A stretch of 64,000 nt of DNA from an uncultured Ardenticatenia bacterium. Lineage in GTDB: Bacteria; Chloroflexota; Anaerolineae; 4572-78; NAK82. The notes under the pieces were generated by a model, which was not told where the DNA came from, searched no databases, and worked only from the letters and a program-made list of their open reading frames with translations. Below, piece by piece: positions 485 through 57,766 of this stretch. The stretch covers positions 62,001-126,000 of the forward strand of contig CAKZLO010000003.1 of NCBI GenBank assembly GCA_937127125.1, read 5' to 3'. Numbering within the stretch: the first letter of the stretch is position 1; each line of letters starts with the position of its first letter. The position numbers and the translations under genes were made by a program.

Positions 485-1549
485 CTATAGGTCCCGAGTG
501 GCTATCCAATAGCTCAGGTTGGCCGGCGTGGACGGGCTGAGTCCTAGCGCCAGTGCTTTATAGTAAGCCAAGAAGTGGACAGGTGGCATGTAGAGAATCT
601 CACGCGCGAAATCGGGCAGACCTGACCCGACCTCAAACACCCAGTCAGCCATGGAACGTATTGTTCCGTCGGCGCGCTCACATAATACAAACACCCTTCC
701 TCCCAGCTCCTTCATCTCGGCTATGAATTCAAGCTCAACGGAACGTGTGCGATCCGTGGTGAACACCGTGATCAGCGTTTGGGCATCAACGCCAGACTTG
801 GGACCGTGGCGGTAATCCAGAATCGGGTAGGAGTCAGACGGCAGCAACGTCATTTCTTTCATTTTTAGCTGAGCTTCACGGGCCAGACCTATATTGGCGG
901 CACTACCGACAAAAGCAAACTTGCTCAATGAGGGCATTTCGCCGAGCGCACGGCCAAGCTCAGAGCATCCCGCGATCACTTTACCCCCTAACGCTGGCAA
1001 CTGCCTAAGCTGGCTCAGATAGGGCTCATTTCCGGCAACAATGCCGGCTAGAACTTGGCCGGTGAGTATCATCGAGGTTAAGCTCTGCGTGGTTGTGACG
1101 CTGGTCTCCTTGGCTGCGGCGAGCACCACAGTTGCACTGCTGGCACGAGCCAAGGCGCTCTCCTGAGAGCATGTGATGCCCAGCGTAGGAATGCTACGCT
1201 GTATGGCCACATGACATGCCCGCACCGTCTCAGTGGTGGAGCCAGATCGGGAAAGCAGCACTACCGCATACCGTACGCCAGACACAAAGACTGTCTCGGG
1301 GAAGAACACGATCTCCGCCGCCGGGACAGCCCGCGCACGAACTCCAGTGACGTGCTGAAAAATTGGTGTAATTGCCATCGCTGCGTTCAAGCCGGACCCA
1401 CAGCCAGTGAAGACGACCTCTTCGCTGGAGGAGAGAATCTCGCGCAGAAGCGAGCCTTGCGCTTCCACCTGCTGGATGGTTGCCTGCCATGCATTGGGTT
1501 GGTTGATGATCTCTTGCAGCATGACTCTATCGTTATCGGAGGGGTTCAT
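485..1549 (-). CDS. SIS-domain sugar-phosphate isomerase/deaminase (GlmS C-terminal/AgaS-like)
   Basis: SRSGSTTETVRA and EAQLKMKEMTLLPSDSYPILDYRHGPKS motifs; start chosen at MNPSDNDRV, the longer ORF overlaps the upstream gene. Confidence 0.85.
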   Translation of the reverse strand: MNPSDNDRVMLQEIINQPNAWQATIQQVEAQGSLLREILSSSEEVVFTGCGSGLNAAMAITPIFQHVTGVRARAVPAAEIVFFPETVFVSGVRYAVVLLSRSGSTTETVRACHVAIQRSIPTLGITCSQESALARASSATVVLAAAKETSVTTTQSLTSMILTGQVLAGIVAGNEPYLSQLRQLPALGGKVIAGCSELGRALGEMPSLSKFAFVGSAANIGLAREAQLKMKEMTLLPSDSYPILDYRHGPKSGVDAQTLITVFTTDRTRSVELEFIAEMKELGGRVFVLCERADGTIRSMADWVFEVGSGLPDFAREILYMPPVHFLAYYKALALGLSPSTPANLSYWIATRDL

Positions 1550-1553
1550 CGAT

Positions 1554-2543
1554 TCAGTCTCCTTGAGCGTCTTGTTCCAGATGCAGATCTTTCGGTTCAG
1601 CGCCCCGCGACGCCAGAAAAGCTTCAACCTCTTCGAGCCGAGGCATACCCAAGTTGCCGGCACGCGCCACGGAAAGCGCGCCACAAGCGTTGGCAAACCT
1701 AGCGCAGTCCTCCAGATCTTGGCCGCCCAGCCAGGCGTATAGAAAGCCTGCGTTGAAGACATCGCCAGCGCTGGTGACATCCATTACCTGTACTTCGAAG
1801 GCTGGGCAATAGACGGTGCGTGTGCCTTGACGTACTATGCAACCGTAAGCACCTCGTTTGATCACTATAGTGTGCCCATATTTCGCCAGCCGGCTTAGCG
1901 CCTTTTCCGGCGCGTCGGCGCCGGTGATGCGCTGGGCCTCGACCTCGTTGGGCAGAAAGACGTCGACGTAATGAAGTACCTTTAGAATGTCTCGATCCCA
2001 ATTCATGAAGGGATCCCAGCCCGGATCGCACGAGGTGGTGAGTCCCTTCTGCTTGGCGGTCCGAAACAGATCTAGCATATCCGGGTGGAGCCCAGTTAGC
2101 AAAAAATAAGAGCCAACATGCAAATGATCAGCGCAGGCCAACAGCTGTTCGGTCACATCAGAGCGTCGCACAGCGCTTATAGACCCCAAATAGGTGGCAA
2201 ACCCGCGCTCGGTTCCGCATGATAAGACCACGGTGGCACCCGTGCGCAACACAGGATCCGTAACCAGGCCGGTCAGATCAACCCCTGCACGGGCCAGCTC
2301 GTCGGCGCAGAGGCGGCCATAGCTATCGCTCCCAACGCGCCCGACGAAAGTTACCAACAGCCCCAACTGGGCCAGAGCACGCGCGATGGTGCCTGTCTGG
2401 CCACCCACTGTAATGACTAAGTCCTGTGCCAACGTGTCTTGTTCAGTGCGTGGTAGATGGGGCAAACCGGTGAAAACAATATCGATGTTGATATCGCCGA
2501 CAGCCAGCACCCGGCCAACCGGGGCGCGGCTTATACCTGACAT
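1554..2543 (-). CDS. PfkB-family carbohydrate kinase
   Basis: VLAVGDINIDIVFTGLP N-terminus and DVTSAGDVFNAGFLYAW C-terminal signature. Confidence 0.9.
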   Translation of the reverse strand: MSGISRAPVGRVLAVGDINIDIVFTGLPHLPRTEQDTLAQDLVITVGGQTGTIARALAQLGLLVTFVGRVGSDSYGRLCADELARAGVDLTGLVTDPVLRTGATVVLSCGTERGFATYLGSISAVRRSDVTEQLLACADHLHVGSYFLLTGLHPDMLDLFRTAKQKGLTTSCDPGWDPFMNWDRDILKVLHYVDVFLPNEVEAQRITGADAPEKALSRLAKYGHTIVIKRGAYGCIVRQGTRTVYCPAFEVQVMDVTSAGDVFNAGFLYAWLGGQDLEDCARFANACGALSVARAGNLGMPRLEEVEAFLASRGAEPKDLHLEQDAQGD

Positions 2544-3478
2544 ACCGTGCCGTCTTCTAATCCTACGAGCAAGTGCGCACCAGGGGTTAGGCCGAAGGGT
2601 GCTACCACGCACGTCAACCCAGCCTGGAAATGCATGCCTTCACGCCAGTGCGACCAAGAGACACCCCCATCGCGCGATATCCACAAGGCCTCGGGTTCCA
2701 TAACTAGAACTGATGGAGGCAATGACGGTGTCCGTGCCACGATAATAGCGTTAACTGGGCCATTGACCTCGAGTGTGCCCACTTCCTGCCATCGAATACC
2801 TCCATCCAATGACCTGAACAGACCGTGCGATTCGGTGCCAGCCCACACAGTAGCATCACGGGCAAAGTCGGGCGACACTGCCAAGCATAATACTGGCGCG
2901 CATTCCATTGGAAAGCCTGTCTCACGCCAAGCTCGGCCGCCATTGGTGCTGTAGAAAACGCCGCTCTCAGTGCCAGCGAAGGCCGTTTCGTCCTGCGTGT
3001 ACTCGGGAGACAAGACCAATGCGAGCACATTCAAGTCCATTAACCCGAAACTTCGCGGTACCCACCTATCGCCTCCGTTCTCAGTAACGTATATGCCATC
3101 TTCGAACGTAGCGGCTAATACCACACTATCCTCACGGTACCCTGGCGATATCGCCAAAGCTGTCACAGGTGTTTGAGGCGGCGGCAGTAAAGTCGCTTGC
3201 CAGGTCGTACCACCATCGCAGGATCGCATAATGGCGCCTGGGATGCCACAAAAGATAGTGTGGTCAGTCACAAACAGTGGTGACACAGCTACTGCGGTGG
3301 TTGCGAGTGGAACTTCGAGCTGCAAGGTTTCAAAGCAGAATTGCCAACTGTGACCGCCATCACTCGATCGGTAGAGCCCGCTAGCGCGCGCGGCAAAGCA
3401 GGTACTATCCCAGGCAAAGTTGGGCGAAACCGCCAAATCGTAGACGATGTCGTGATCTGCAGAGATTACGGGTTTCAT
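2531..3478 (-). CDS. BNR/Asp-box beta-propeller protein (sialidase/Ycf48-like repeats)
   Basis: Repeated S.DGG..W motifs (YRSSDGGHSW, MRSCDGGTTW, YSTNGGRAW, FRSLDGGIRW, ISRDGGVSW). Confidence 0.8.
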   Translation of the reverse strand: MKPVISADHDIVYDLAVSPNFAWDSTCFAARASGLYRSSDGGHSWQFCFETLQLEVPLATTAVAVSPLFVTDHTIFCGIPGAIMRSCDGGTTWQATLLPPPQTPVTALAISPGYREDSVVLAATFEDGIYVTENGGDRWVPRSFGLMDLNVLALVLSPEYTQDETAFAGTESGVFYSTNGGRAWRETGFPMECAPVLCLAVSPDFARDATVWAGTESHGLFRSLDGGIRWQEVGTLEVNGPVNAIIVARTPSLPPSVLVMEPEALWISRDGGVSWSHWREGMHFQAGLTCVVAPFGLTPGAHLLVGLEDGTVCQV

Positions 3479-5121
3479 CACGGTTTGGTTGCTTCGACGG
3501 GCTTCTCGTGATGCACTAGCACATCAATCGTCAATGCCATAGCAGCTGTATTGATTGCATTAGTTACCGCAGCCCTCTGTATTTCTGCTACATCTAGAAT
3601 GCCCGCAGTTACCATATTCACTACGCGACCACTGAGCACATCAAAACCCATGCCCTGGCTGGCTGACTGCAACTCGGCTAATACCTCACCAGGGTCATAG
3701 CCAGCATTCTCTGCAATTGTGCGTACTGGAGCTTCGACGGCACAACGGAGGATGCGATAGGCAGCTCGCTCGTCGGGATCGGTACTCACCTTCCACAGCT
3801 GGTGCAGCCGCGGACGGCAGGCCAGTAGAGCTGCGCCGCCTCCTGGAACGACACCGCTACGAATGGCAGCACGTAGGGTGTTAGCAGTCTCTTCGGCTAG
3901 AGATTTGCGCGTCTCAATCTCGATCTCGGTGGGACCACCAACGCGCAATATTGCAACACCGCCGATCAGCTGGCCGATGCGTGTGCGCAGACGCTGGAGG
4001 AGTTGCATGTCCTGACATTGTGACAGGGCCTGTCGTAGCGTGGCGACGTGCGCGCGCAGGCGGCGCGGATCGCCTCCACCACCTACAATGCCGAAACGGA
4101 AACGGTCGACCCAGACACGCCGTGCATGCCCCAGGTCTGCAGCTGCTACTTCAGCCAATGTGTCGCCAACAGCTTGCAGGAAAGGGCGACCGCCAGTGAG
4201 CACTGCTAGATCTTCCATTGCTGCAATCTCGTCGATGCGCTCCGGACCGGGTGTCCTTACAGCAATGGCTTGCAAACGTTCTGGCACCCGACTATTTGCT
4301 ATAAGCATACCAACAGCGCGCGGCGAGATGTGACTAGCAATCACCAACAACGAACGTCGCCCAAGCCGAACGGTTGTTTCCAAGACTGGCAACAACTGGT
4401 CAGGCTCTTCGATCCTAAGGTCGCTAACCAGGATTGCCACATCCTCCAGCTGCGTTTTGAGGCGGGCCTTGTCAGTGTACATCTCGCGCGAGAAGAGCTC
4501 GCTCTTCCATGCCATGCCTTCTATATAGTCGCGCTGCAGCTCGCGGCTGCGCATTGGTCTAATCTCTAGCTGTCCATACTCACCAATGATGTCGAAGATC
4601 TCACCCAAAACGCGCGCCAATGGTGGGTCGCCACAGACTGACTGAGCCAGAGCAGCTAGCTGGGACTTACTATTTAGCCTCAGGACCTGCCTATCAATTT
4701 CATCGAGAATGACTTGCCGCCCTGCTTCCAAGTAATGACATAGACGCATAGCATTGCCACCTGCAGCAAGGTAGGTGGCACCATGGCTGCAAATCTCCGC
4801 CAAAAGTACTGCCGCAGTGGCAACACCGTCACCATAGGCTTCGTGTAAATTCCAGAGCATTTGACGGGCCAACATAGCACCCATATCTGCGTCACGATCA
4901 GGCAGCTGGATGATGCGTCGTGCAATAATACCGCCCTTGGTCAGCATTTCAGGTGGCTTGTTGGTCACCAGCTGGTGAAAGGCCACTTGCCGCGGCAACG
5001 GACCTAAGGTGGGTCGAATTGCATCTACCAATAGTTGAATGCCACGTTGAAGTCCACATCGAGAAGCAGGTTGAAACACCACTCGGCGGGTAGATCGTCC
5101 ACCCATAGGATAACCTTCCAT
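3478..5121 (-). CDS. Divergent GroEL/Hsp60-family chaperonin-like protein
   Basis: YGDGVATAAVLLAEI (cf. GDGTTTATVLA) and SGVVPGGGAALL...AVEAPVRTIAENAG; length 547 aa; start could also be 5106. Confidence 0.8.
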   Translation of the reverse strand: MEGYPMGGRSTRRVVFQPASRCGLQRGIQLLVDAIRPTLGPLPRQVAFHQLVTNKPPEMLTKGGIIARRIIQLPDRDADMGAMLARQMLWNLHEAYGDGVATAAVLLAEICSHGATYLAAGGNAMRLCHYLEAGRQVILDEIDRQVLRLNSKSQLAALAQSVCGDPPLARVLGEIFDIIGEYGQLEIRPMRSRELQRDYIEGMAWKSELFSREMYTDKARLKTQLEDVAILVSDLRIEEPDQLLPVLETTVRLGRRSLLVIASHISPRAVGMLIANSRVPERLQAIAVRTPGPERIDEIAAMEDLAVLTGGRPFLQAVGDTLAEVAAADLGHARRVWVDRFRFGIVGGGGDPRRLRAHVATLRQALSQCQDMQLLQRLRTRIGQLIGGVAILRVGGPTEIEIETRKSLAEETANTLRAAIRSGVVPGGGAALLACRPRLHQLWKVSTDPDERAAYRILRCAVEAPVRTIAENAGYDPGEVLAELQSASQGMGFDVLSGRVVNMVTAGILDVAEIQRAAVTNAINTAAMALTIDVLVHHEKPVEATKP

Positions 5122-5233: not shown

Positions 5234-6706
5234 TCAACCTTTATTCTTAGGGTTGTTGGGACTTGTGTCCATAACTATCTGCTGTAACCTGGCGATGCGG
5301 TCGAGTGTCTCCTTGGGCGACTGACCACCAATATAGCACAGGTTAACCTCGCGTTGCTGGATGTCCAGCAGCTCCTTGTACTCAGGCCAAATCCAAAAGT
5401 CGCGTGCCAACGGGGTCGACGTCCACATGACCTGCTTGGCGTGGAACATGGGTGTGTCAATCGAGAACTGGTAGTCTTTCAGGTCCACCCGAGCACTGGC
5501 ATATCCAGCCGCCGGGTTATCAACTAGGGCCTTCTCTGTTTCATAGGACTTCAACCACTGTATGTATGCCCACGCGTCAGCCTTGCGTTGGGAATTGGCA
5601 TTTATCCCGATGCCCTGGCAGGCAAACACGGGCACACGTCGTACTTCGCCAGTCTTGGGATCCTTGTAGCCGGGTAAGACAGCGAAGTCCCACTTGCCAA
5701 CGGTTTTTGAAGTGGCTGGATCCTCAGTGAAGGCAGCAAAACTGACGTAGGTGTACCACATTGCCGCCAAGTCCTGCGTAACCGCATTGATCAGCTCGAT
5801 GATAAACCAGTTGGCCGAGCCCGGGTCGACGACCTTGTACTCGAGGTTGTACTTAACGAACTCCGTGAGTGCCTCTACAGCAACGTCAGAGTTTATGATG
5901 CCCTCAATCTGCCACGTGTCGTAGTCCCAAATGTCGGCACCATAGGAAAAGTGGAAAGGAAGCCAGGCCATTGAGATCCCATCAGCCAAGCGCGTGTTGT
6001 ACCACGCAATACCGTAACGGTTGCCTTTCGTCAGCTTGATGCAAGCGTCTCTGAACTCATCCCATGTATCGGGCGGTTTGGCCTTGCCGTTAGCGTCGAC
6101 AATCCCAGCCTCCTCGAATAGGTCGACGCGGTAACTGAGCATGTTGGTGCCTAGTGTCCAGGCCACACCATAGATAGGGAGGTCCTGGTACTCGGCGACG
6201 TCGCCGCGCAATGCCTTCTTGTCGTTGACCGGGAAGCGTCCAAGGTAGTCGCGATGGCCGGGTATGAAGTCCTCAAATTTGATCTTGGCATTGGGCGATC
6301 GGAAATAGTCGGTGGTATCCAGGTTCTCCATGGCACCGCTTAGGACCATAGCACCCAGCCACTGGCTGTCATACTCCCAAATGTCGAACTCAGGGCTTTT
6401 GCTAGCAGCCAGCTCTCGCATCTTCGACTCGGCGAATTCATAAGGAGGACCTTCGAGCACAGCCGTGATGCCCGTCTCCGGCGTGAAGATCTCGTTAGCC
6501 ATCTGTTGCTCGACCGGTGTCTGCGGCCAGGGCAGACTCAGGATGCGCACTATTCTCTCACCTTGACCCTCTGGTGCTAGAGGCGCATCTTCAAGCGGCG
6601 CAGCAAAGCCGCTCACGGGCAGCAGTGTGGTCACTGCCAAGCCACCCCCCGCTGCCGCAACACCCTTCAAGAACTGTCGTCGGCTTAACACTCGGTTCTC
6701 AGACAT
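5234..6706 (-). CDS. ABC transporter extracellular (carbohydrate-type) substrate-binding protein with Tat-like signal
   Basis: SRRQFLKGVAAAGGGLAVTTLLP signal; family-1 SBP-like sequence; start MSENRV (ORF extends into IS end). Confidence 0.88.
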   Translation of the reverse strand: MSENRVLSRRQFLKGVAAAGGGLAVTTLLPVSGFAAPLEDAPLAPEGQGERIVRILSLPWPQTPVEQQMANEIFTPETGITAVLEGPPYEFAESKMRELAASKSPEFDIWEYDSQWLGAMVLSGAMENLDTTDYFRSPNAKIKFEDFIPGHRDYLGRFPVNDKKALRGDVAEYQDLPIYGVAWTLGTNMLSYRVDLFEEAGIVDANGKAKPPDTWDEFRDACIKLTKGNRYGIAWYNTRLADGISMAWLPFHFSYGADIWDYDTWQIEGIINSDVAVEALTEFVKYNLEYKVVDPGSANWFIIELINAVTQDLAAMWYTYVSFAAFTEDPATSKTVGKWDFAVLPGYKDPKTGEVRRVPVFACQGIGINANSQRKADAWAYIQWLKSYETEKALVDNPAAGYASARVDLKDYQFSIDTPMFHAKQVMWTSTPLARDFWIWPEYKELLDIQQREVNLCYIGGQSPKETLDRIARLQQIVMDTSPNNPKNKG

Positions 6707-6791
6707 TTGGACCCCTGTAATTGGCCCCAAAAACTGGACCACGTGCTAAGGTGGATCACATGATGTATGATCTGGCACGTGGAGGGAGAGA

Positions 6792-7082
6792 ATGGCCAAG
6801 AACCGCCGGCGGTTCAGCGCCGAGTTCAAGTTCAAAGTCGCACTGGAGGCAGCGAAAGGAACCAAGACGATCAACGAGTTGGCCAGCGAGTACGAGGTTC
6901 ATCCGAACCAGATCGGGCAGTGGAAGAAAGAGTTGCTGGAAGAGGGGGCCAGCTTGTTCGCCAGGCCCAGTGCTCAGCAACAGCGGCGGCAGGAGAGCCA
7001 GATTGCTGAGCTGTACGAGCAGATTGGGCGACTCAAGATGGAGCTGGAGTGGCTCAAAAAAAAAGCTGCCCGCTACGACTGA
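6792..7082 (+). CDS. IS3-family transposase OrfA (HTH)
   Basis: RRRFSAEFKFKVALEAAKGTKTINELASEYEVHPNQIGQWKKELLE; ends just after an A9 run. Confidence 0.92.
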   Translation: MAKNRRRFSAEFKFKVALEAAKGTKTINELASEYEVHPNQIGQWKKELLEEGASLFARPSAQQQRRQESQIAELYEQIGRLKMELEWLKKKAARYD

Positions 7083-7096
7083 GGGCAAGCGGGCGA

Positions 7097-7899
7097 TGAT
7101 CGACCGCGGCCTCGTCTCGGTCAGCATACGGCGCCAGTGTGAACTCGTCGGTCTGAGTCGCTCATCGCTGTACTACCAGCCGGCGGGTGAGTCGGAAGAG
7201 AACCTGCTGCTGATGCGGCTGATCGACCGGCAGTACACCCGGACCCCGTTCTACGGCTGGCCGCGGATGACGGCGTACCTACGGCGGGAAGGGTACGAAG
7301 TCAACCCGAAGCGGGTTCGGCGACTGATGACTTTGACGGGATTGCAGGCGATTTACCCGAAACGGAAGACCAGTGTGGCAACTCCAGGCCACAAGCAGTA
7401 CCCGTACTTGCTGCGTGGCCTCCGGATCGACCGGCCGTGTCAGGTCTGGAGCTCGGACATCACCTACGTGCCGCTGCGCGGTGGCTTCATGTACCTGGTG
7501 GCCATCATGGACTGGTTCAGCCGGTACGTCCTGGCCTGGCAGTTGTCCAACACCCTGGACGGCCTTTTCTGTAGGGTGGCGCTGCGGCAGGCGCTGGAGC
7601 GGGGTGTGCCGGCGATCTTCAACACCGACCAGGGGGCGCAGTTCACCGCCGAGGAGTTCACAAGCATCCTGGAAGGGGCCGGCGTCCGCATCAGCATGGA
7701 CGGTCGAGGGCGAGCCATGGACAACGTCTTTGTCGAGCGACTGTGGCGCACGGTGAAGTACGAGCACATCTACCTGATGGACTACGCCCAAGTCCCGGAG
7801 CTGGAAGCAGGGCTCCACGGCTACTTCCAGTTCTACAACCAGGAGCGCCCGCATCAGAGCCTGGGCTACCGGACGCCGGCGGAGGTGCACCATGCGTGA
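7097..7899 (+). CDS. IS3-family transposase OrfB (DDE integrase core)
   Basis: WSSDITYVPLRGGFMYLVAIMDWFSRYVLAW, FNTDQGAQFTAEEF and VFVERLWRTVKYEHIYL; possible fusion to OrfA through the A9 tract. Confidence 0.92.
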
Positions 7900-7909
7900 G
7901 CCGCTTGGG

Positions 7910-7964
7910 CTGTGGGCATGTGGAAAACTCTCCGCTGCGCTGCGAGTTTCCCACATGCCCACAG
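7910..7964. repeat. Long near-perfect hairpin at IS 3' side
   Basis: ctgtgggcatgtggaaaactc (7910-7930) and gagtttcccacatgcccacag (7944-7964), 20/21 complementary, 13-nt loop. Confidence 0.85.
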
Positions 7965-8317
7965 CCCCGACGACGGCGACTGGCTCCCGCAGGGGCTATG
8001 GGTTCGTTGGCAAATTTGACATGCTGCGGGATCGGAGGTATGATGTGGTCGGATGCACTGTTGATCGGGAGTGCATTCCCAAGTCGGAGGAGTGGGGATC
8101 CACCTTATTTTGGCCGATCCGTGGTCCAAAGAATGGGGCCAACCGCAGGCAAATATTATGTTATGCCTCACTGCATTTTTGTGTTCACCAAATTGTCGCA
8201 ACAGTTCACCAATGCGTACAGAGTCGCATACAGGTAGCGGATAGGGACCACGACAGTATCTATGGAAACCATGGATGGTTTGTCATTTCTAGGGTCACCA
8301 GCCCATAATGTAATAAT

Positions 8318-55660: not shown

Positions 55661-56719
55661 TCACCGTTTGATAGCACCAAAGGTTAGGCCGCGCACCAGA
55701 TAACGCTGGATCAGGATGCCAAATACCACTGGCGGGATGACGGCCAGCAGACCCAGGGCTGCCTTGGGGCCGTGCTGCGCGCCAATCTCAGACGAAACCA
55801 GCGAGTTCAGAAAGACCGGGATAGTCGGCCAGTCGCGAGTTGTGAGCAGCAGGGCGATCAAGAAGTCACTCCAGTTGAGGATGAAGACAAACAGGGCTGT
55901 GCTGGCAAGACCTCCCTTGGCTAGCGGCAACACCACCTTAAGAAAAGCGCCCCAGTTCGACGCTCCGTCGACAATGGCTGCTTCGTCCAGCTCGCGCGGG
56001 ATCTCATCGAAGAAGCTTTTCATCAGCCAGACGACAAATGGGAAGGTCACCACACCATAGACGGCCACCAGTCCATACCACGTGTCGATTAACTTAAACG
56101 CTGACCACATGATCATCACAGGGATCACAATAGCCATAGGTGGAAACATGCGCAGTTGCAGAATGGAGAAGGCCAAGCTGCCAGTTGGCCCGCGATAGAT
56201 GCGTCCCAAGAGCCGCCCGATCAGCTGGTCAGCGGCGATGCCAAGTATGGTGAAGGTGAGTATGCCATACCAGTAGCGAATGATACCCAGCCAAGCCCAG
56301 AGCACCATAAAGGGCAACAACACCAGGATCAATAGGGCCAACCGACCAAGGGCGACATACCAAGGGAGATCGCCCGTATCCACCGAGAAGCGCGACAGAC
56401 CGTAAGCAGCCAGTGTACCGATGAGGAGAGCAAACAAGGTGCCGCCGATGGAAACGATGATGCTGCTACGGATGGAAGGCAGAGCCGAGCTCTGGTTGGC
56501 ACGGAAGAACTGACCACGGTATTCGGTCAACACTGTATCAAAATTTTCCAGTGTCGGGTTCTTGGGCACCCAATAGATGGTGCCGTGGGCAGTGGACCAC
56601 TCGACCTTCGGCTTGAAAGCCATTGTGACCATCCAGTAAGTGGGGAAGGTGAACATCCCCACGACGATGATCACCAGCGCGTAACGGACCACGCGCTGCC
56701 AGGTAGGTGTTTTCTGCAT
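55661..56719 (-). CDS. Carbohydrate ABC transporter permease (MalG-type) with internal insertion
   Basis: EAA motif DEIPRELDEAAIVDGASNWGAFLKVVLPLAKGG; extra hydrophobic block LALLILVLLPFMVLWAWLGIIRYWYGILTFTILGIA. Confidence 0.9.
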   Translation of the reverse strand: MQKTPTWQRVVRYALVIIVVGMFTFPTYWMVTMAFKPKVEWSTAHGTIYWVPKNPTLENFDTVLTEYRGQFFRANQSSALPSIRSSIIVSIGGTLFALLIGTLAAYGLSRFSVDTGDLPWYVALGRLALLILVLLPFMVLWAWLGIIRYWYGILTFTILGIAADQLIGRLLGRIYRGPTGSLAFSILQLRMFPPMAIVIPVMIMWSAFKLIDTWYGLVAVYGVVTFPFVVWLMKSFFDEIPRELDEAAIVDGASNWGAFLKVVLPLAKGGLASTALFVFILNWSDFLIALLLTTRDWPTIPVFLNSLVSSEIGAQHGPKAALGLLAVIPPVVFGILIQRYLVRGLTFGAIKR

Positions 56720-56758
56720 CTCACACTACTCCTTCTCATCCACTCTTTATGTACTCGT

Positions 56759-57736
56759 CTATCCAATTTCCCGCTGAGGTGTCTGTAGCGGACGCAGTGC
56801 GTAGGAAGCGATGATGGTCATGATGACCAAGATGGTCATCGCGGCCGCAGCAGCAAAAGACCAGCGTACCTGCTGAAAAGCCACTTTGTACATGTAAATT
56901 GAGATGGTCTCCGTCGCTTGTGCCGGCCCCCCCTGAGTCATCAGGTAGACCATGTCGAAGATCTTCACAGCTTCCATTCCGCGGATGACTACGGCGATGA
57001 TAATAATGGGCTTGAGAATAGGTAGCACCAGATAGCGGAATTTCTGCCATGCTGTAGCGCCTAACATGGTGGCAGCACGCATCTGGTCTTCCGGGAGCCC
57101 TACCAGGCCGGACAACATGATGAGAAACATCAAAGGCGTCCATTCCCACACCTCGGCAACGATGACCGCAATCATAGCGGTGACGTCATTAGCCAGCCAA
57201 GTCAAAGTAAAGGGTTGGCCGATCAAGAGAGAGATAATGGCATTGAGGGGACCATTGGACTGGAAGAAGAGCCAAAATACATAGCCGGCCACGGCAGGCA
57301 CGATCATCATAGGGACCAGCATAAGTGTGTAGAAAATGCGTTTGCCAGGAAATTCCTCGAGAAACAAGAAAGCGATGCCCAGACCAAGCAGAAATTCCAA
57401 AGCTACAGCCACACCCGCAATCAGAAACGTGCGTCCCAACGCCTGCCAAAAGGCAATGTCGCGAAATACTTCGACATAATTGCGGCCCCAATCCCAAAAA
57501 CGGTAAGCCTGTGTCCAATCACCACCCCGCGTGGGTGTCCATGAGGTCAGACTGATATAGACCTCCGCTAACAGCGGGAACATAATGATGAACAACAGCA
57601 CGAACTGTGCGGGTGCGGTGAGCGACGTAGAGAAGATGCGCACATCACTCATGTCCAGAAAGCGGCGGCGTCGCACCCGGCCCGTTTCTCCGATGCGTTC
57701 ATCCTGGATCACTGGAACAGCAACATTTCCCCCCAT
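56759..57736 (-). CDS. Carbohydrate ABC transporter permease (MalF/UgpA-type)
   Basis: EAA motif GLPEDQMRAATMLGATAWQKFRYLVLPILKP. Confidence 0.9.
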   Translation of the reverse strand: MGGNVAVPVIQDERIGETGRVRRRRFLDMSDVRIFSTSLTAPAQFVLLFIIMFPLLAEVYISLTSWTPTRGGDWTQAYRFWDWGRNYVEVFRDIAFWQALGRTFLIAGVAVALEFLLGLGIAFLFLEEFPGKRIFYTLMLVPMMIVPAVAGYVFWLFFQSNGPLNAIISLLIGQPFTLTWLANDVTAMIAVIVAEVWEWTPLMFLIMLSGLVGLPEDQMRAATMLGATAWQKFRYLVLPILKPIIIIAVVIRGMEAVKIFDMVYLMTQGGPAQATETISIYMYKVAFQQVRWSFAAAAAMTILVIMTIIASYALRPLQTPQREIG

Positions 57737-57766
57737 GAATTAACTCGCTCCTCACAACGTATAGCA

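Follow-up and report, generated by a model that had tools for sequence, protein, structure and literature searches.

CpnX, a family of divergent group I chaperonins that lacks the hydrolytic aspartate and is usually encoded beside a seven-bladed propeller, mostly in Chloroflexota

The 64,000-nucleotide stretch of Chloroflexota DNA analysed here (the window) encodes a divergent group I chaperonin, CpnX, which belongs to a family where the catalytic Asp398 of GroEL is absent throughout and the gene is in most cases followed by one for a seven-bladed BNR/Asp-box β-propeller. An earlier note on this DNA had proposed a repurposed, possibly ATPase-deficient chaperonin, and this proposal is supported by the family-wide absence of Asp398, a partner gene of its own, purifying selection, and the presence of canonical GroEL and GroES in the same genome. 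Most of the residue and gene-order claims in that note hold as well; its Gly at position 52 does not, and the open reading frame lies on the minus strand.

On that strand, the genes follow the order Tat-type solute-binding protein, CpnX, BNR propeller, PfkB kinase and SIS protein, so the chaperonin does sit between a binding protein and a sugar kinase as had been described. CpnX occupies a 547-codon open reading frame (3478..5121, minus strand), in which the ATG at 5106 (MGGRSTRRVVF) is the probable start judging from the sequence. The propeller frame (2531..3481, minus strand) gives 315 residues from an ATG at 3478, and the junction, ...AAACCGTGATGAAACCC..., places this start inside a TGATG overlap, which confirms the overlap reported earlier. 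Further along the operon are a PfkB-family sugar kinase (1554..2612, minus strand) and a SIS-domain sugar isomerase/deaminase that is GlmS/AgaS-like (485..1780, minus strand). On the other side of CpnX lies an SBP_bac_1 solute-binding protein (5234..6742, minus strand; gene start probably the ATG near 6703) with the Tat signal VLSRRQFLKG, which is a candidate client. Other loci have permeases between the binding protein and CpnX; this one has none there, and the closest pair of permeases within the window is at 55664-57739. An IS3-type transposase frame (6721-7899, plus strand) is located directly upstream of the binding-protein gene, and just past it is a near-perfect inverted repeat (7907-7967) with 29-nt arms and a 3-nt loop.

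Membership of the window CpnX in the chaperonin superfamily is secure. The protein matches Pfam Cpn60_TCP1 (PF00118) over residues 31-536 (5e-39; 134.8 bits against a cut-off of 34.3), can be aligned over its entire length with group I chaperonins of solved structure (best 1.6e-77), and is ~30-33% identical to GroEL, in agreement with the alignment claimed before. The scores do not place it among functional GroELs: with the GroEL equivalog model TIGR02348 it reaches 327.4 bits, short of the cut-off of 582.1, and it passes the threshold of the NCBI GroEL model PRK12849 by 0.8 bits. Group II chaperonin models match only approximately residues 388-538 (22-52 bits), and no full-length match to a group II (thermosome/CCT) profile, with its built-in lid, was found. 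The AlphaFold model (pLDDT 92.5) has a full-length group I chaperonin fold, and in Foldseek comparisons with GroEL structures its best match is the closed, GroES-bound form of the subunit (TM 0.87, rmsd 3.0), compared to TM ~0.62 for apo subunits; this is a hint that the predicted subunit may resemble the GroES-bound closed state, in a comparison that had no canonical GroEL model as control.

At position 398 the window CpnX has Glu (AEET against VEDA, ungapped in three alignments), exactly as had been noted and without ambiguity. The claim that Asp52 is lost is right in that position 52 is not Asp, but the Gly assigned to it appears only when the pairwise HMMER alignment is left ungapped. Since relatives read LTDGATIARRII or LDNGGxIARRII, the one-residue insertion falls after Arg58, and the family alignment accordingly gives Thr at position 51 and Lys at position 52; we therefore reject Gly52 in favour of Lys52. 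The window protein has neither Asp51 nor Asp52. Asp87 (in the GDG motif), Asp495 and GGG414-416 are present, Thr89 and Thr90 of GroEL are replaced by Val and Ala, and the sequence contains no GGM tail; the retention of Asp87 and the missing tail had both been recognized correctly.

The pattern of residue loss is family-wide and far above chance. Asp398 occurs in none of 87 CpnX (Arg in 47, Glu in 18, Ala in 10, Lys in 4, others in the rest), and the two Asp398 in the family alignment of 90 rows come from two canonical rows that it still contained. Position 52 carries Asp in roughly one CpnX in three (30/90 aligned rows) and otherwise mostly Asn, Lys or Ser, Asp51 is near-universal (82/90 rows), and across the 87 proteins Asp87, Asp495 and the GGG loop show little or no variation. 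In BNR-class CpnX, Leu, Glu/Asp and Met mostly replace the aromatics Tyr199, Tyr203 and Phe204 of the GroES and substrate groove, while the ring-contact positions are largely kept, for example Arg452 with Asp/Glu461 and the N-terminal Val-Val-Phe strand. The charges at positions 51, 52 and 398 look complementary (Arg/Lys398 with Asp/Asn/Ser52 and Asp51; Glu398 with Lys52), and the covariation between 52 and 398 is visible but rests on few independent events. From these residues, an ion-pair latch at 52/398 in place of the catalytic Asp pair is possible.

Relatives were taken from a scan of named genomes, which found 162, of which 80 were fetched; CpnX among these is nearly all from Chloroflexota (mostly Anaerolineae), with three from Acidimicrobiia/Actinomycetota. 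By our reading, a CpnX score is reached in approximately 10% of the high-quality genomes sampled from the class (21 of 200, with more than 600 bits). In an unrooted tree, a single 100% branch splits the canonical GroELs, including that of E. coli, from all CpnX, and Asp398 is lost once. Pairwise dN/dS comes to 0.05-0.06 in CpnX and to 0.09-0.12 in BNR, with dS near saturation; a value of ~0.05 indicates that the window CpnX is a working protein. On phages and plasmids, the best matches were only ordinary GroELs at ~30-33% identity, and a role in anti-phage defence was rejected for want of any PADLOC match. We found no description of the family in the open-access literature.

In addition to three CpnX (window, C42 and C6), the source genome encodes two canonical GroELs, both with a groES gene directly in front. 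The earlier note had made its claim depend on this not being the only GroEL of the genome, and with two canonical groES-groEL pairs present it is not refuted on this point. The canonical loci on contig C11 (L001 and L002) are nearly identical and lie 25 kb apart. A full canonical GroEL is found in 13 of 16 CpnX genomes, and the exceptions look like assembly gaps, because genome G002 also lacks groES. In related genomes groES adjoins canonical groEL and not CpnX; at the loci examined no groES adjoins CpnX, except at L055, where a canonical groEL also lies.

The most conserved association of CpnX is with the propeller and not with the sugar genes. A BNR propeller is the next same-strand gene at 66 of the 87 CpnX loci with enough downstream sequence, many of the pairs overlapping by 4 nt, and at one further locus it lies on the opposite strand. 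A multi-pass membrane protein takes its place at 14 loci, all in one subfamily (LDKGG, Glu398), and 6 loci have neither; a propeller partner is therefore no absolute requirement. The membrane protein, undescribed and of ~310 residues, follows CpnX of this subfamily at L097, L104, L107-L109, L111 and L113-L115, and likewise at L117, L118, L123-L125 and L131. In the source genome there are three close BNR matches alongside the three CpnX; other BNR proteins match weakly, which suggests that the three CpnX go with three partner propellers. The distance matrices of CpnX and BNR are correlated (Mantel r 0.76 for 54 pairs; permutation maximum 0.18), and at 24 transporter loci the correlation is 0.91, or 0.89 (partial) after the permease signal is removed: CpnX and propeller co-evolve. 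Among deep-branching relatives, the BNR partners at L052, L053, L054 and L055 are 630-645 residues long, about twice the usual length, and the long BNR gene of L055 adjoins canonical groES-groEL. The BNR gene at L065 is apparently frameshifted, its first part lying in a different frame from the 159-residue remainder.

The AlphaFold model of the window propeller (pLDDT 95.2) has seven blades by its strand list and comes closest in fold to Ycf48 and GH74 propellers. Ycf48, a photosystem II assembly factor, is the top PDB fold match and is likewise a single-domain Asp-box propeller; the window protein differs in being only 16-18% identical to it, in lacking any visible signal peptide and in having no photosystem context, and its score with the Ycf48 model PRK13684 is 38.5 bits against a cut-off of 326.

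Dedication to a sugar pathway, as put forward in the earlier note, holds only in part. Of the 55 BNR-type loci with upstream sequence, 26 have CUT1 permeases on that side, but PfkB and SIS are not conserved, and other CpnX genes are found beside smc, histidine kinases and unrelated genes. Of the proposed combination of chaperonin, BNR, PfkB and SIS, only CpnX-BNR recurs; near CpnX at other loci PfkB has no match and SIS one weak match, and we reject both as conserved neighbours, since they are particular to the window locus. At L041 and L042, smc is followed directly by CpnX, with no BNR gene. Tat signals are carried by 29 of 31 binding proteins in CpnX operons, while by a similar pattern the base rate is 11 of 30 solute-binding proteins in the source genome and no more than 6 of 30 in any of five relatives. 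As the operon proteins fall into three or four families, this enrichment is suggestive only and a weak guide to client identity; binding proteins are also missing from about half of the CpnX loci, and at several loci a second, separate one has a Sec-type signal. A Tat binding protein must fold before export, and we thus regard it as the likeliest client in the sugar-transport operons.

By the textbook account, chaperonins go through rounds of ATP turnover, and those of group I depend on GroES. We tentatively favour a reading in which CpnX binds ATP, barely hydrolyses it, and works with the propeller, not GroES, as a holding or assembly chamber. CpnX keeps the nucleotide-binding residues and, as predicted, the GroEL fold, without the hydrolytic Asp398. 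The E. coli GroEL variant D398A binds ATP normally, has 3% ATPase activity and still encapsulates and folds protein (PMC3326522); another study puts its ATPase at ~2% (PMC3813556). As D398A binds ATP with little turnover, CpnX should bind ATP, close and hardly reset, with very slow hydrolysis; some residual ATPase is possible, given the near-universal Asp51 and the Asp52 of roughly one member in three. The obvious candidate for the part of lid or client adaptor is the co-inherited cytoplasmic propeller, which would bind to an assembled CpnX ring with GroES left unused. The pair would then form a slow, one-shot chamber for particular clients. We speculate that the sevenfold pseudo-symmetry of the propeller would fit a sevenfold ring. 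A more specific version, where the propeller replaces GroES, ATP binding drives one-shot encapsulation, and Lys52-Glu398 or Asp51/52-Arg398 latches the ring, seems improbable to us.

The frequent pairing and co-evolution would also fit a propeller that is the dedicated client of CpnX, its private folding chamber, and that then acts alone. BNR evolution is about twice as fast as that of CpnX, and CCT is known to bind and fold seven-bladed WD40 propellers (PMC8544692). We nonetheless consider this unlikely, while giving it some weight: other BNR proteins in the source genome have no adjacent CpnX, a membrane protein replaces the propeller in one subfamily, and a foldase would hardly be expected to lose turnover. 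Slightly less likely is that CpnX is no chaperone at all and serves as a scaffold or sensor. As a ring or monomer gated by ATP or by a ligand, it would then join the propeller in regulating or supporting the neighbouring operon. This would suit the varied gene contexts, histidine kinases and smc included, and an exit from the folding cycle is possible for the degenerate BBS/CCT8L chaperonin-like proteins (PMC2846930); against it, CpnX retains its ring contacts and has no DNA-binding or signalling domain. That CpnX is an ordinary extra GroEL, using the GroES of the genome and hydrolysing ATP through Asp51/Asp52, would account for the frequency of these two residues, and is very unlikely given that Asp398 is always absent, the GroES groove is altered, no groES is adjacent, and the window copy has neither residue. 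A decaying, non-functional duplicate might be suspected because CpnX has diverged so far from GroEL and misses catalytic residues, but it can be dismissed almost entirely: purifying selection (dN/dS) rejects a pseudogene, and intact frames, invariant residues, a single origin and wide distribution all speak against it.

The chamber reading that we prefer can be set beside several known systems. With GroEL/Cpn60 (PF00118, TIGR02348), CpnX shares the three-domain fold, GDG with Asp87, Asp495, the GGG loop and the ring contacts, and differs in lacking Asp398, the groove aromatics, the GGM tail and an adjacent groES, with Asp52 variable. It misses the same catalytic Asp as D398A, hence the prediction of ATP binding with little turnover; unlike that variant, it is natural and old, with many further changes and a propeller partner. 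Chlamydial GroEL2 and GroEL3 are also bacterial paralogues found beside a normal GroEL, with altered ATP and GroES regions (PMC1892554). They form a family separate from CpnX, as the window protein scores 90 and 132 with NF038370 and NF038369 against cut-offs of 600. We know of no propeller pairing for these chlamydial proteins. BBS6/BBS10/BBS12 and CCT8L have a degenerate hydrolysis motif and keep key ATP-binding residues (PMC2846930), but are group II and eukaryotic.

These findings suggest that the chaperonin-propeller cassette is a kind of chaperonin machine not yet described in the open-access literature. A natural, widespread and maintained family without the hydrolytic Asp would separate the role of ATP binding from that of hydrolysis, and the CpnX-propeller pair would offer a bacterial parallel to CCT with WD40 proteins or to the degenerate BBS chaperonins. 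Many 'chaperonin GroEL' annotations would then need correcting.
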